Position numbers and translations under genes: made by a program | Notes under the pieces: generated by a model | Told to the model about the DNA's origin: nothing | Database searches by the model: none | The model's input: the letters and a program-made list of their open reading frames with translations, nothing else | From: Prevotella sp. | GTDB lineage: Bacteria; Bacteroidota; Bacteroidia; Bacteroidales; Bacteroidaceae | NCBI GenBank assembly: GCA_017443345.1 | Contig: JAFSNR010000021.1 | Span: 1-64,000 of the forward strand | DNA: 64,000 nucleotides | Direction of reading: 5' to 3' | Part shown: positions 14,653 to 19,331 of the stretch, one piece after another | How positions within the stretch are numbered: position 1 is the first letter of the stretch | Layout: each line of letters begins with the position of its first letter

Positions 14653-15768
14653 ATGAAAAAGAATAGAGTCCTGACACTCCTGATGCTCATTGCCATGCCG
14701 GGCATGGCTGACAAACACATCCCCTTCCTGGCAGATGGCATCATCGACACCTGGCAAAAAGGATTGGAGCCACGAGGAGGAAAAACGAACTTCATGACAG
14801 ACGAAGCCCGACGGATTGGCGACCAGATCCTGCTCTACCAAAGAGATACTGGCGGATGGCCGAAGAACATCGACATGGCCAAGCCCTTGTCCGACAAAGA
14901 GCGCACACTCATTCTGGAAGACAAGCAGCGGCGCGACGACTCCACTACCGACAACGGAGCCACAACCACCCAGATGATCTTCCTTGCCCGACTATACCAG
15001 CAGACCAAGGATCAACGTTACCGCGACGGATTCCGCAAGGGCGTGGAATATCTGCTCAGCGGTCAATACGAGAACGGCGGCTGGCCACAGTTCTGGCCCG
15101 AGATGCGCGACTACCAGATACATATCACCTACAACGATGATGCGATGGTGAACACCATGACCCTGTTGCGCGACATGGTGGAGCAAAAGGAACCCTATCA
15201 GGGCGACCTGACCGACGAAGCTCTCCGCCAACGGATGCAGGCGGCCTTCGACAAAGGTGTCGAATGTATCCTCGCCACACAGATCGTGACCGACGGTGAG
15301 CTCACCGTATGGTGCCAGCAGCACGACCGTGAGACCCTGAAGCCCGCCAAGGCACGGGCCTACGAGCTGCCCTCCTATTGCTCCACTGAAAGTGCCTCAA
15401 TTACCATGCTCCTGATGCAGCTGCCCCATCCCGACGACCGTGTCAAGCGGGCCGTACACGCCGCCATGCGCTGGTTTGAGAAGCACAAAATCACAGGCTA
15501 TAAGGTGGTACGCACAGGTACTCGAGGCAGCGCCGACTATAATACCAGTCTGGTGAAAGACCCCGATGCCCCACCTCTCTGGGCACGGTTCTACGACCTG
15601 GAGCACTGCGAACCGTTCGTCTGCGACCGCGACGGCATCCCCCGCCGCCATCTGTCAGAGATTGGCAGCGAGCGCCGTAACGGCTACGCCTGGTACAGCA
15701 ACCGTCCCGCCCAGCTCTTCCCCGTCTATGAGAAATGGACTTCGAAACATTCCGCCACTCGCAATTGA
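14653..15768 (+). CDS. Pectate lyase, polysaccharide lyase family 10
   Basis: A 371-residue enzyme that cleaves de-esterified homogalacturonan by beta-elimination. A short signal peptide (MKKNRVLTLLMLIAMPGMA) is followed by the PL10 alpha-toroid with GGWPKNIDMA, STTDNGATTTQ, NGGWPQFWP, ITYNDDAM and ELPSYCSTESASI. Its length fits a single catalytic domain. It has its own promoter and terminator and is cut off from the rest of the pectin locus by the HU/VapE module. Export to periplasm or surface is inferred from the signal. Confidence 0.92.
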   Translation: MKKNRVLTLLMLIAMPGMADKHIPFLADGIIDTWQKGLEPRGGKTNFMTDEARRIGDQILLYQRDTGGWPKNIDMAKPLSDKERTLILEDKQRRDDSTTDNGATTTQMIFLARLYQQTKDQRYRDGFRKGVEYLLSGQYENGGWPQFWPEMRDYQIHITYNDDAMVNTMTLLRDMVEQKEPYQGDLTDEALRQRMQAAFDKGVECILATQIVTDGELTVWCQQHDRETLKPAKARAYELPSYCSTESASITMLLMQLPHPDDRVKRAVHAAMRWFEKHKITGYKVVRTGTRGSADYNTSLVKDPDAPPLWARFYDLEHCEPFVCDRDGIPRRHLSEIGSERRNGYAWYSNRPAQLFPVYEKWTSKHSATRN

Positions 15769-15785: not shown

Positions 15786-15902
15786 TGCAGCAAGAACTGG
15801 AAAAGGCCTAAAAATACAATAAATTCCGAATATATATGGATATAGTCGGTAGCAACTGGCTATTAATCGCAAGTCGATAATCAAATAATCAAATAATTGT
15901 TG

Positions 15903-15910
15903 TACCTTTG
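15903..15910 (+). promoter_or_regulatory. Promoter of the first HU-like gene
   Basis: TACCTTTG followed by CAGCCGC, 32 bases upstream of the HU-like start. The gap from 15786 to here is AT-rich with CAAATAAT repeats and no visible gene. Confidence 0.75.
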
Positions 15911-15942
15911 CAGCCGCTAAATATAAATAAGGTACACGAGAT

Positions 15943-16563
15943 ATGCCAAGAAAGAAAGACGGAATGTTGTTTGAGGTCCATCCTTCACCCGCCAAGGGAA
16001 AGGATGGTAAGAATATAGTTTATGTGCGTCCTGCTGGAAATATGAAACTGTCGATGCAAGGACTGGAGGATTACTGCAACCGTAATTACCATTCACTCTA
16101 TGGTGAACTGGGGAGAGCCTTCGACTATTTCCTCAGGGCGGCTGGTGAGGTGATGGCCATGGGCTATCGCATTGAGACGCCCATCGGCTCGTTCGCCCCA
16201 AGGCTGAAACTGCTCCGCGAGGTTACTGACCCTAACGAGGTGAAGGGCATAGATGTGGTGTTCGACGGAGTGGACTACAATCCGGGAAAGCTGTGGAACA
16301 GGGAACTGGAAAAGTGGTCACGCGGTTTCCGAAGGGCCAACAACCCGAATACACAGGAAGTTCTGGCCGACAAGCAACAGCTCGAAAAGGTACTTCGGCA
16401 ACAGTTGGGTGATGGAGGCTATACCACTGTCCATCGCTTCGCCCTGGCTTCGGACCTCACCTACTATTCTGCCCGCAAGTTGCTTAATGCGTGGTGCGAG
16501 GGCGAGAACCCCAAACTTCTGAAGACCAGACAGGGGCAGGTGTTCATCTATACAGAAGTATAA
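15943..16563 (+). CDS. HU-like DNA-binding domain protein 1
   Basis: A 206-residue Bacteroidota HU/IHF-like protein. Residues about 30-120 fit an HU-type domain (LEDYCNRNYHSLYGELGRAFDYFLRAAGEVMAMG, then the ETPIGSFAPRLKL arm), and the C-terminal third (residues 145-206) looks like a winged-helix tail (TVHRFALASDLTYYSARKLLNAW). Such proteins bind and bend DNA. It precedes the repeat arrays and the VapE-like gene and may bind those repeats. Its last four codons and stop lie inside the left inverted repeat, so the C-terminus may have been supplied by that repeat. Confidence 0.8.
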   Translation: MPRKKDGMLFEVHPSPAKGKDGKNIVYVRPAGNMKLSMQGLEDYCNRNYHSLYGELGRAFDYFLRAAGEVMAMGYRIETPIGSFAPRLKLLREVTDPNEVKGIDVVFDGVDYNPGKLWNRELEKWSRGFRRANNPNTQEVLADKQQLEKVLRQQLGDGGYTTVHRFALASDLTYYSARKLLNAWCEGENPKLLKTRQGQVFIYTEV

Positions 16564-16681
16564 GAAAAAAAATCGAGCTACTGGAGCTACTGAGGCGTGT
16601 AACGTTCTGATAATCAGTCAAAGTTCGGTGTTAGATTGACTCAAAATCGAGCTACTATGGTGCTACTGATGGTGCTACTGA
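16551..16681 (+). repeat. Left long inverted repeat (IR-L)
   Basis: About 131 bp matching the reverse complement of 19165-19295 at roughly four bases in five by eye. The blocks ACTGGAGCTACTGAGGC, CTGATAATC and CTCAAAATCGAGCTACTA are identical. It begins in the last codons of the HU-like gene and ends before the 22-bp repeats. Confidence 0.85.
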
Positions 16682-16720
16682 GAAATACACTTGTAATCGA
16701 CTGAAAATCAAGCGTTTCTA

Positions 16721-16786
16721 TTTTGGGCATAGGCGCAAGGTATTTTGGGTATAGCCGCAAGGTCTTTTGGGTATAGCCGCAAGGTA
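16721..16786 (+). repeat. Three tandem 22-bp repeats (set A)
   Basis: Three head-to-tail 22-bp units of the form TTTTGGGTATAGCCGCAAGG plus two bases, at 16721, 16743 and 16765. Units two and three differ at one position; the first has two substitutions. The length, two helical turns, is typical of iterons or binding arrays. Confidence 0.9.
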
Positions 16787-16814
16787 GTTTAGACGTCACT
16801 TTCTCCCTGCTTAG

Positions 16815-16924
16815 ATAGGCTCTTACCCCTGTGGGGATAGTCTCTTTACCCAGTAAGGAATATCTCCTTTCATGCAAAGAAGGCATCCCTTGCAACGTAA
16901 GAAGGCATCTGCAACAACGTAAGG
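16815..16924 (+). repeat. Further 22-bp periodic units (sets B and C)
   Basis: The 22-bp period continues in diverged units. ATAGGCTCTTACCCCTGTGG (16815) is followed by ATAGTCTCTTTACCCAGTAA (16837) and a weaker third unit at 16859. The pair AAGAAGGCATCCCTTGCAAC (16877) and AAGAAGGCATCTGCAACAAC (16899) follows, each completed by two further bases. The sets are out of register only in a 28-base break (16787-16814). Together with set A this gives about 200 bp of repeats directly upstream of the VapE promoter. Confidence 0.75.
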
Positions 16925-16981
16925 TATGCCTTCAATTGAAAAAAAAATCAAATAATATTTGGTTTTTTGCTCATTTTTTCG

Positions 16982-16989
16982 TATCTTTG
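16982..16989 (+). promoter_or_regulatory. Promoter of the VapE-like gene
   Basis: TATCTTTG followed by CACTCCG is a canonical -7 element; TTTG lies about 19 bases upstream. The start codon is 31 bases downstream. Confidence 0.8.
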
Positions 16990-17020
16990 CACTCCGTAAT
17001 ACGAAAAACCAAATTAATAC

Positions 17021-19150
17021 ATGAAGATTACAAAGATTAAGACTAAGTACGGTGAGTTTGGCTCGCCGGTTTCAACAGGACTCGATGCCATCGTGGAGCG
17101 TATGCGCTCTGAAACCATTAAATCCGATGCAGAAAGGATCAGAAACATTGCCCTACAGTCGAGGCTGATGATGGAGAAAGGGGCTCCGAGGTATCTGCTG
17201 AAGGATGCTGACCGTCTGCCCTACCTGCTTTTCTCGGCGACGTTCGGCAAGAACGGGCTCGACCATCCCACGGCGTTCAGCCAGTTGCTGTTGCTGACGA
17301 TCCCTTGTCCTGAGGGTTTGCGACGCATCAGCGAACTGAAGCGGCTGGTGGCGCAAGTGCCTTATACCCTCTTGGCTTTTGCGGGCGTGAGTGGCGTGAC
17401 GCTGAAGGTACTGGTGCGTTGCGAATATAGTGGTGGTGCAACACCTTGGAAAGCAGGCGATTGCAACCACAACAGCCAACTCGACACACCCAGATATCTC
17501 GCCTTTCTGAAGGAAGCCCAGGAGACGGCGGCACGTATCTATACCGCCCTCGTTCAGTGCGACCTTGTGATTGGCGAGCCCTCGCTGACAAGAGGTTGCA
17601 GAATGAGCTATGATCCCCAGCTCTACTACCATCCAGAGGCAATGGCCTTACCCGTGATTCACGACGACGAGGGGGTGCTGGCTCCCTATGAGGGCACGAA
17701 GGCGGATGATAGCGGCACCGTGTTTTGGTTTCCCGATTCCGACGAGCGGGAACGCTACAAATTGGAGTTCTATACTTGTATGAAAAAGGCTCTCGGCGAG
17801 AGTCCTCAGGATATGGAGCACACGCTGGTGCTGCTTGCGGGCTATTGTCAGAAGGCGGGCTTGGAGGAAGAGGCGTGTACCGTAAGAGCGATATGGGATT
17901 ATCGATTCAAGCCACTCGGCGAAGACCTCATCCGTAAGATCTTCCGCGAGACCTACATCCAGCCTTTCAACGGCAAGTCGCTCTCGCAGATGAACGAGAA
18001 GGAGCGCATCATCCGTTTCATTGAGGACTTCTTCGAGCGTCGTTATCAGTTGCGTTACAACGTGGTGAAGCAGATGACGGAATATCGGCCTAACGACCTG
18101 AGTTTCAGTCAGTGGCAGCCCTTGACGGACCGTCAGCTGAAGAGCATCGTGGTAGAGCAGATGAAGGAGGGCGGCGAGAGTTGGATGAACGATATCCGCA
18201 TCTATATCGAGAGTGCGCACGTGAAGGACTACAACCCTGTGCTGGAGTTCCTGGCGGGTTGTGGCGAGTGGGACGGCAAACGGAACTATATCGAGGATTT
18301 TGCCCGTCGCCTGCCTACCGATTACCCGCTCTGGCCCAAGTACTTCCACCGCTGGTTCCTCGCGATGGTGGCTCAGGCCATGAACATCAACCGCGACTAC
18401 GGCAACTCGATGGTGCCCATGCTTATTGGCGGCGAGGGCATCAAAAAGTCCATCTTTTGTAAGAATATCCTGCCGCCCTCGATGCGCGAGTACTATATGG
18501 ACGACATCAAGATGCAGAATGCCGAACAGGTGGAGCGCGTACTAGGCCGTATGTGGCTGGTCTGCATCGACGAGTTCAACGCCAAGACCCCTCGTGAACA
18601 GGCCAAGGTGAAGCGACTGCTGACGGAGAAGGATGTACAGATGCGCAAGATGCGTTCTGCGGAGTACACGATGACCCCGCGACTCTGCTCGTTCATTGCC
18701 ACCACCAACGACCCCACCCCACTCTCCTCGGCAGAGGGCAACCGCCGCTATCTCTGTGTGGAGGTGAAGGGCGAGATAGACATGACGGAGCGCATCAACT
18801 ACAAACAGCTGTATGCCCAGGCCGTCACAGAACTGAAGGATCCTGATTGTCTCTACTGGTTCACTTCAGAGGATGAGCGCATCATCCGCGAGCATAACCA
18901 GTCGTTTATGGAAGAGTCGTCTGCAGAGGGTGTCCTGCCCAGTCTCTTTGAGCCAGTCGCAGAGCATACCAAGGAGAATCTCTGGCGCGTCATCGATATC
19001 CAGGAAGAGCTGGCCAAGCACCTGAAGAGTGCCGATGTGCCAACCTTGAAGGCACTCGCCGTATCCATCAAGGCCCTCCGCTGGCCCAAGGGAGCGAACA
19101 ACGGCGCACGAGGATACTACCTGAAACTGCGCGAAAGCGCATCCTTGTAG
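17021..19150 (+). CDS. Primase/VapE-like superfamily 3-type ATPase protein
   Basis: A 709-residue protein. The first 240 residues resemble the VirE-N/BT4734-like domain found at the start of Bacteroidota primase-helicases (TPRYLAFLKEAQETA, EPSLTRGCRMSYDP). The C-terminal part is VapE/DUF3874-like: MVPMLIGGEGIKKS (residues about 464-477) as the P-loop region, MWLVCIDEF as Walker B, FIATTND as sensor 1 and EGNRRYLCVEV with candidate arginine finger. The P-loop reads GGEGIKKS where GxxGxGKS is expected, so one glycine is Lys. Proteins of this type occur on mobile elements and islands. The gene is alone between the two inverted repeats and has its own promoter. A function in replication initiation is inferred. 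Confidence 0.82.
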   Translation: MKITKIKTKYGEFGSPVSTGLDAIVERMRSETIKSDAERIRNIALQSRLMMEKGAPRYLLKDADRLPYLLFSATFGKNGLDHPTAFSQLLLLTIPCPEGLRRISELKRLVAQVPYTLLAFAGVSGVTLKVLVRCEYSGGATPWKAGDCNHNSQLDTPRYLAFLKEAQETAARIYTALVQCDLVIGEPSLTRGCRMSYDPQLYYHPEAMALPVIHDDEGVLAPYEGTKADDSGTVFWFPDSDERERYKLEFYTCMKKALGESPQDMEHTLVLLAGYCQKAGLEEEACTVRAIWDYRFKPLGEDLIRKIFRETYIQPFNGKSLSQMNEKERIIRFIEDFFERRYQLRYNVVKQMTEYRPNDLSFSQWQPLTDRQLKSIVVEQMKEGGESWMNDIRIYIESAHVKDYNPVLEFLAGCGEWDGKRNYIEDFARRLPTDYPLWPKYFHRWFLAMVAQAMNINRDYGNSMVPMLIGGEGIKKSIFCKNILPPSMREYYMDDIKMQNAEQVERVLGRMWLVCIDEFNAKTPREQAKVKRLLTEKDVQMRKMRSAEYTMTPRLCSFIATTNDPTPLSSAEGNRRYLCVEVKGEIDMTERINYKQLYAQAVTELKDPDCLYWFTSEDERIIREHNQSFMEESSAEGVLPSLFEPVAEHTKENLWRVIDIQEELAKHLKSADVPTLKALAVSIKALRWPKGANNGARGYYLKLRESASL

Positions 19151-19164
19151 CGCCAAAAGCGCCT

Positions 19165-19295
19165 TCAGTAGCACAATCAGTGCAGGATAGTAGCTCGATT
19201 TTGAGCCTATCCTGCACCGCACTTTGTTTGATTATCAGTCACTTACAAGCCTCAGTAGCTCCAGTAGTTCGATATTTTTTTGTTATACTGCTGTA
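19165..19295 (-). repeat. Right long inverted repeat (IR-R)
   Basis: Reverse-complement partner of 16551-16681, of the same length. It starts 15 bases after the VapE stop. Its outer end, TACAGCAGTATAAC on the minus strand, matches the end of the HU gene in IR-L (TACAGAAGTATAAG), stop codon included. Confidence 0.85.
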
Positions 19296-19331
19296 GTGTA
19301 CTGAATAAGAAAGAAAAATAAAGGTCTTTTC

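Follow-up and report, generated by a model that had tools for sequence, protein, structure and literature searches.

What kind of unit is formed by a helicase gene that lies between two long inverted repeats, where no transposase is recognised? The question is raised by positions 15887-19295 of a 64,000-nucleotide stretch of Prevotella sp. DNA (contig JAFSNR010000021.1, positions 1 to 64,000 of the forward strand; hereafter the window). A gene of the VapE type, encoding a superfamily 3 (SF3) helicase, is enclosed there by inverted copies of a 131-bp repeat and is preceded by an HU-like gene. HU-like neighbours of VapE genes recur, and the window's own genome contains 17 VapE matches, the window's own counted; to our knowledge, neither these VapE genes nor their HU-like neighbours have an accepted role. 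We conclude that the unit is probably a mobile element and, with a probability of about two in three, that it represents an undescribed class in which a VapE SF3 helicase gene stands between inverted multi-site ends and drives the element. The sequence comparisons show its anatomy, its recurrence between unrelated flanks, the gene-less derivatives, the cargo, purifying selection and ends that vary in step with the VapE C-terminus. That VapE drives the unit through its ends is our best reading of them; that movement proceeds by copying, not by excision, is less certain. Genomes are labelled G, contigs C and fetched loci L, G000 being the window's own genome.

Anatomy of the unit

The preliminary description of this locus had proposed inverted ends of equal length, about 80% alike, enclosing one gene of the primase/VapE type together with 22-bp repeats, and this picture was borne out. 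BLAST against the own genome paired the left end (16551-16681, plus strand) with the right end (19165-19295, minus strand) at 84% identity (E 3e-33), and the best local alignment of the two gave 113/131 identities and a score of 158, versus at most 31 in 30 shuffles. The single long gene between them is the VapE gene (17021-19150, plus strand; 709 aa), in which Pfam recognised a BT4734-like_N domain and a VapE domain, followed by 69 C-terminal residues. Three copies of a 22-bp repeat form an iteron-like array at 16721-16790 (plus strand), and two more 22-bp repeats, 77% alike, lie at 16866-16909 (plus strand). The left end carries the half-sites GAGCTACTG at 16575 and 16584, GAGCTACTA at 16649 and GTGCTACTG at 16660 and 16672, all given on the plus strand and spaced by 9, 65, 11 and 12.

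The HU-like gene (15943-16563, plus strand; 206 aa, Pfam HU-HIG) ends inside the left end. The right end, an inverted copy of the left one with a hairpin stem, has a few HU codons at its outer edge, in agreement with the description of HU tails in both copies. The list of open reading frames (ORFs) of the unit holds no long ORF besides HU and VapE, except those overlapping VapE. When VapE and HU were compared with the domain library, no transposase or integrase was recognised among their family matches, as described before, and VapE matched no transposase; what else lies between the ends are short ORFs, mostly overlapping VapE, which were not searched.

Recurrence between unrelated flanks

A second copy with intact ends, for which the preliminary description had suggested a search, was found in G197. 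Its VapE is 92% identical to that of the window, and the two loci align in one block with 86% identity over 3405 bp (window about 15887-19295), whose limits lie 56 bp upstream of the HU start codon and 137 bp past the end of the VapE coding sequence. The unit thus starts with a pre-HU stretch (15887-15942, plus strand) common to both copies, and to the left of 15887 the sequences are unrelated. Outside the block the flanks are unrelated on the whole; two short matches, both weak, occur at other places in the loci. Since a single block is shared between unrelated flanks, all five parts (HU, the two ends, the array and VapE) make up one unit; and since the homology begins 56 bp before the HU start codon, HU travels with the window unit. 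The alternative of HU as host target or as part of the unit, left undecided before, is settled by this homology in favour of the latter. The unit is also not at one fixed site, the situation named beforehand as fatal to a mobile unit.

The right end of the G197 copy contains two inverted pieces (89% and 84%) of a decayed second HU gene, and the window right end retains a few codons of such a gene. These pieces hint at an ancestral unit with an HU copy on both sides. In a separate pair of loci that share their flanks, L136 (G222) and L159 (G007), identity is 84% upstream and 99.6-99.7% within and beyond VapE; the downstream part appears to reflect recent transfer or conversion.

Gene-less copies and solo ends

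The ends of one unit in G181 match 10 further places at 8 loci. On contigs C6 and C7 (L241/L242) they form inverted pairs of about 0.7 and 0.65 kb with a 22-bp array inside. These gene-less copies are 88% alike over 262 nt and 81% over 307 nt, and contain no ATG-started ORF of more than 53 aa; at the remaining loci the ends stand singly, in four cases close to the end of a contig. Three gene-less copies in G000 (C43, C52 and C185), with no ORF of at least 100 aa inside, are related to the outer parts of another unit (C73:69369-71459), whose VapE of about 425 aa is without the primase domain and whose ends are 88% alike. They belong to that VapE subfamily, not to the window's own unit. Gene-less copies measure 0.4-0.7 kb overall. 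They resemble miniature inverted-repeat transposable elements (MITEs) in being shorter than 1 kb, non-coding and bounded by paired inverted ends, with a parent that has related ends. When they were inspected by eye, no target-site duplication was recognised at their edges, which are uncertain. Together with the G197 copy, these non-coding paired-end copies support the earlier proposal of an undescribed mobile or replicative unit.

The window end family itself has one further clear copy in G000, a solo end with array at C73:655, which follows an apparent ABC transporter gene at a distance of 23 bp. A common 3' untranslated region had been named beforehand as a refuting explanation, and a solo end after an unrelated gene does speak for it. 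The other half of that test went the opposite way: inverted ends were confined to the VapE genes tested, being found around 28 of 67 VapE genes versus none of 192 other genes. The explanation was therefore rejected, despite the solo ends that follow genes at C73:655 and in G181.

At 19292-19308 (minus strand) the window has TTATTCAGTACACTACA, identical to a stretch that abuts element ends in G181. Standing beside some ends, it was considered as a common terminus of the elements and dropped; it may be the end of an insertion sequence.

Distribution of VapE units

Of the 299 genomes searched in the genus, 40 had VapE relatives (E ≤ 1e-100, at most three candidates scored per genome), the own genome being one of these. 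From a GTDB scan, 80 loci were kept of 170 relatives, which makes 81 with the window; 76 of the 80 are titled Prevotella or Prevotellaceae, many from ruminant gut samples. A permissive search, from which one G+C-rich repeat type was filtered out, found inverted ends around VapE in 41 of the 81, a few of them weak (about 1e-4). The counts of 28/67 and 0/192 given above come from fixed windows at E ≤ 1e-6, applied to testable VapE genes and to the other ORFs of 300 aa or more that these loci contain. Among 11 testable VapE paralogues of the own genome, three have strong ends, two weak ends and six none.

A phage or plasmid carrier was rejected. VapE had matches in 46 plasmid and 155 phage records, all below 60% identity (23-35% in the 20 listed of each), and a peptide-pattern search of IMG/VR gave no encoded relative in 31 candidate stretches. 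Left-end DNA had no match in phage records.

Architecture of the ends

In 13 aligned units, each end consists of two direct half-sites, a spacer, one inverted half-site and three direct half-sites. The letters differ between units, and the set is incomplete in some. The spacing is 8-9, 65-66, 11 and 11 or nearly so, and is mirrored across the VapE gene, with the pair outside and the triple towards VapE on both sides (L309 is ambiguous). A strict form of this plan, at least four direct copies and one inverted copy of one 7-mer with exact matches, was found in 21 of 81 loci, or in 19 once L279 and L290, which are 22-nt arrays, are set aside; in seven of the 19 both ends conform, and elsewhere in 1.06 Mb of the same loci the strict plan did not occur. 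When chosen ends were folded as single-stranded DNA, 9 of 13 did better than all but at most one of 200 shuffles; L315, L289 and the C52 copy gave no significant fold. In the 500 nt upstream of VapE, 36 of 72 units had a best period of exactly 22, 6 had a different one and 30 had none, versus period 22 in 0 of 442 control windows and another period in 6. The plan of the elements comprises ends of the form A A - inverted A - A A A, often a 22-bp iteron-like array, and an HU-like partner in many units of the subfamily.

Unit-like 22-bp arrays also occur alone in G032, at 13 listed places (L060-L068, L070, L073-L075), and the stretches fetched had no match to the window VapE. L071 (1-4200; G025:C8), read by eye, has an integrase-like gene, an HU relative (58%), a 22-bp array, GGTCACATGGTCAC palindromes and then a primase-like gene; its layout, which includes dyad sites, seems to be related to that of the unit.

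How the ends co-vary with VapE

For 28 units in which VapE is intact and the ends measure 90 nt or more, the similarity of ends was compared with that of VapE parts. Residues 641-709 of VapE corresponded most closely to end similarity (Spearman 0.488 for the left end and 0.470 for the right). With the remainder of the protein controlled for, the partial correlation of this segment was 0.379 on the left and 0.385 on the right (p=0.001 each), versus 0.098 (p=0.135) and 0.041 (p=0.30) for the rest of VapE given 641-709. The BT4734_N part gave a weak partial correlation in the left arm only (0.139, p=0.048). Because end similarity follows residues 641-709, this correlation suggests that VapE binds its own ends. 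HU was also considered as the reader of the ends and set aside, its correlation being weaker than that of VapE (partial 0.16 vs 0.22 in 16 units).

The VapE and HU proteins

Both proteins are under purifying selection: in seven comparisons, dN/dS was 0.049-0.091 for VapE and 0.039-0.095 for HU (0.095 for HU against G197). The Walker A and B motifs are kept in the window VapE domain. Primase motif I reads LLLLTIP, and does not fit the pattern hhhDhD/E of active archaeo-eukaryotic primases (AEPs) given in PMC5862659. The motif is degenerate throughout the window VapE clade, and own-genome paralogues that align there also depart from the pattern. Primer synthesis by VapE is therefore doubtful. 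Against solved chains, the VapE profile had a sole match, 7pds (E 7e-07), a SaPI protein, and the HU profile had none.

Cargo and orientation

Some units hold further genes between their ends: an AbiD/Abi_2 gene with two unnamed ORFs in L151, and AAA_14 ATPases matching PADLOC PDC-S01 in L145 and L136. The cargo of these three units thus looks in part defence-like.

Such cargo bears on a further explanation, namely a non-mobile regulatory or replication module in which VapE and HU bind flanking operators or origins, and in which the repeats are maintained and spread by homologous recombination and gene conversion. The 22-bp arrays and half-sites do resemble origins, HU and a helicase make up a replication set, and no target duplication is seen. 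A fixed module, however, would account poorly for cargo genes inside the ends, for paired-end gene-less copies at unrelated sites and for the abrupt switch to unrelated flanks, and we regard it as improbable.

HU abuts an end in 16 of 32 units, among the units listed. In L275, L309 and L323 it is the right end that the HU 3' end abuts, which means that the segment with VapE is turned round with respect to HU; L289 likewise has a minus-strand HU, at a greater distance. These arrangements could point to an invertible switch, in which the inverted ends recombine and the orientation of VapE with respect to HU changes. Reversed units do exist between genomes, but ordinary inverted-repeat recombination would give them equally, and a switch accounts for neither the gene-less copies nor the differing flanks. 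It is very improbable.

Target sites and RAYT-like genes

Several observations weigh against a mobile element driven by VapE. No recombinase or nuclease domain was recognised in the family matches of VapE and HU, and primase motif I is degenerate. The check for target-site duplication, suggested beforehand, came out negative: in 31 units, the longest match shared by the two outer edges had a mean length of 3.06 nt, versus 3.07 nt when edges were mismatched, so that matching edges were not in excess. Likewise, the empty sites that had been asked for in relatives were not found at base level; at the site of the G181 C7 copy, three relatives are without a 2-kb stretch that also carries a RAYT-like gene. 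The genomes compared are mostly metagenome assemblies. Ends were not found in 40 of 81 units, partly owing to contig breaks (L271, L278) or divergence and perhaps partly to true absence or loss; in L297, which equals L149, divergence hid clear ends from BLAST. In no more than 25 of 72 units did the own right end match best, because related units share ends. The window's own ends do not satisfy the strict plan, although the left one is spaced by 9, 65, 11 and 12, and the window left end has no significant fold. Variability of the VapE C-terminus may inflate its correlation. None of 8 VapE loci in records of Bacteroides, Phocaeicola, Parabacteroides and oral Prevotella had such ends, a 14-nt match being all that was seen; with these loci and 6 of 11 own-genome paralogues lacking them, the idea that VapE genes generally carry such ends was rejected.

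RAYT-like genes also adjoin elements of the GTGCCCC type in three genomes. This raises the possibility that a different enzyme, namely a RAYT/Y1 or DDE transposase, mobilises the ends in trans, and that VapE is a passenger enclosed by REPIN-like repeats. In G181, one gene-less copy has as its neighbour a RAYT-like gene with an HUH-like motif, and units in G284 and G220 also have RAYT-like neighbours; the matches to REP_Tyr_transpos are weak, at E 0.0012 and 0.0021, and fall far short of the curated cut-off. According to PMC3116915, REPINs consist of two REP sequences in inverted orientation and are associated with RAYTs. On the other side, one RAYT-like query (E ≤ 0.001) had no match in G000 or G031, both of which bear units, a search that a distant RAYT could escape. 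Only one of 22 other RAYT-like loci had a motif cluster, of an unrelated 7-mer, and the ends follow the VapE C-terminus, which argues against a passenger. RAYT as a general mobiliser was rejected on the first two of these grounds. No genome-wide search was made for other transposase families, and we consider the passenger explanation as a whole unlikely.

Divergent RAYT-like genes were located at L242 1379-2513, L149 4216-5952, L144 111-770 and L253 106-1101; the first two have the HUH-like motifs MPDHLH and MPEHLH, respectively, and all four are hardly matched by Pfam and NCBIfam. The pectate-lyase-like gene to the left of the unit (14653-15768) encodes 371 aa here, and its open frame has about 700 aa or more in most best-matching relatives listed. 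It was tried as a guide to an empty site and abandoned; the window right flank was not within about 1.5 kb of it in 29 relatives.

Proposed mechanism and implications

If the units are mobile elements driven by VapE, the following scheme can be proposed. The VapE C-terminal domain would bind the half-sites of its own ends, and HU would assist in melting the array, which would serve as an origin. By its unwinding, the helicase would bring about copying of the DNA that the ends enclose; the copy would be joined into a new intergenic site by host enzymes or by some unrecognised activity; and gene-less copies would be moved in trans. A new class of transposable elements in this full sense, with an SF3 (VapE) helicase and no transposase, reading complex ends through its C-terminus, copying between them, acting in trans on gene-less copies, and having subfamily-specific ends and defence cargo, is a tentative proposal that we rate a little below even.

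The element reading would tie part of the numerous VapE genes of the window's own genome to mobility. If it is correct, DNA can be moved through a replication helicase instead of a known recombinase, and a source is provided for repeat families of Prevotella genomes. It would also offer a second view of HU-HIG expansions, which have reportedly been read as defence against invaders.

Comparison with known systems

In casposons, pipolins and Helitrons, as in the unit, a replication protein is the main gene. Unlike these, the unit had no PolB, Cas1, integrase or HUH nuclease domain among the VapE and HU family matches. Phage satellites and plasmids with VapE or AEP-helicase proteins share with it a homologous helicase (7pds, E 7e-07) and a primase-like domain (AEP families of PMC5862659), but the unit consists of one or two genes between inverted ends and has no relative in IMG/VR. 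Among its long ORFs there is no integrase, packaging or plasmid maintenance gene, as would be expected of PICI/SaPI islands or plasmids.

The BrickBuilt MITE of Porphyromonas gingivalis is likewise found in Bacteroidales and is intergenic and gene-less, with inverted ends and internal tandem 23-nt repeats. It differs in its 12-nt IS5-type terminal repeats and its repeat consensus, and a VapE parent is not mentioned in the portion of the source consulted (PMC4596501). REPINs (PMC3116915) are extragenic inverted doublets predicted to form hairpins, with non-autonomous copies. The ends of the units differ from them in measuring about 110-130 bp, in having five direct half-sites and one inverted, and in the VapE helicase between them, and the own genome was unmatched by one RAYT-like query. 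Literature titles and abstracts, subscription papers and preprints lying outside the search, contained no description of VapE genes between inverted repeats. To the extent that the sources cover them (PMC3116915, PMC4596501, PMC5862659), none of REPIN/RAYT, BrickBuilt and the AEP-helicase replicases appears to have this plan, and each of them matches a part of it.

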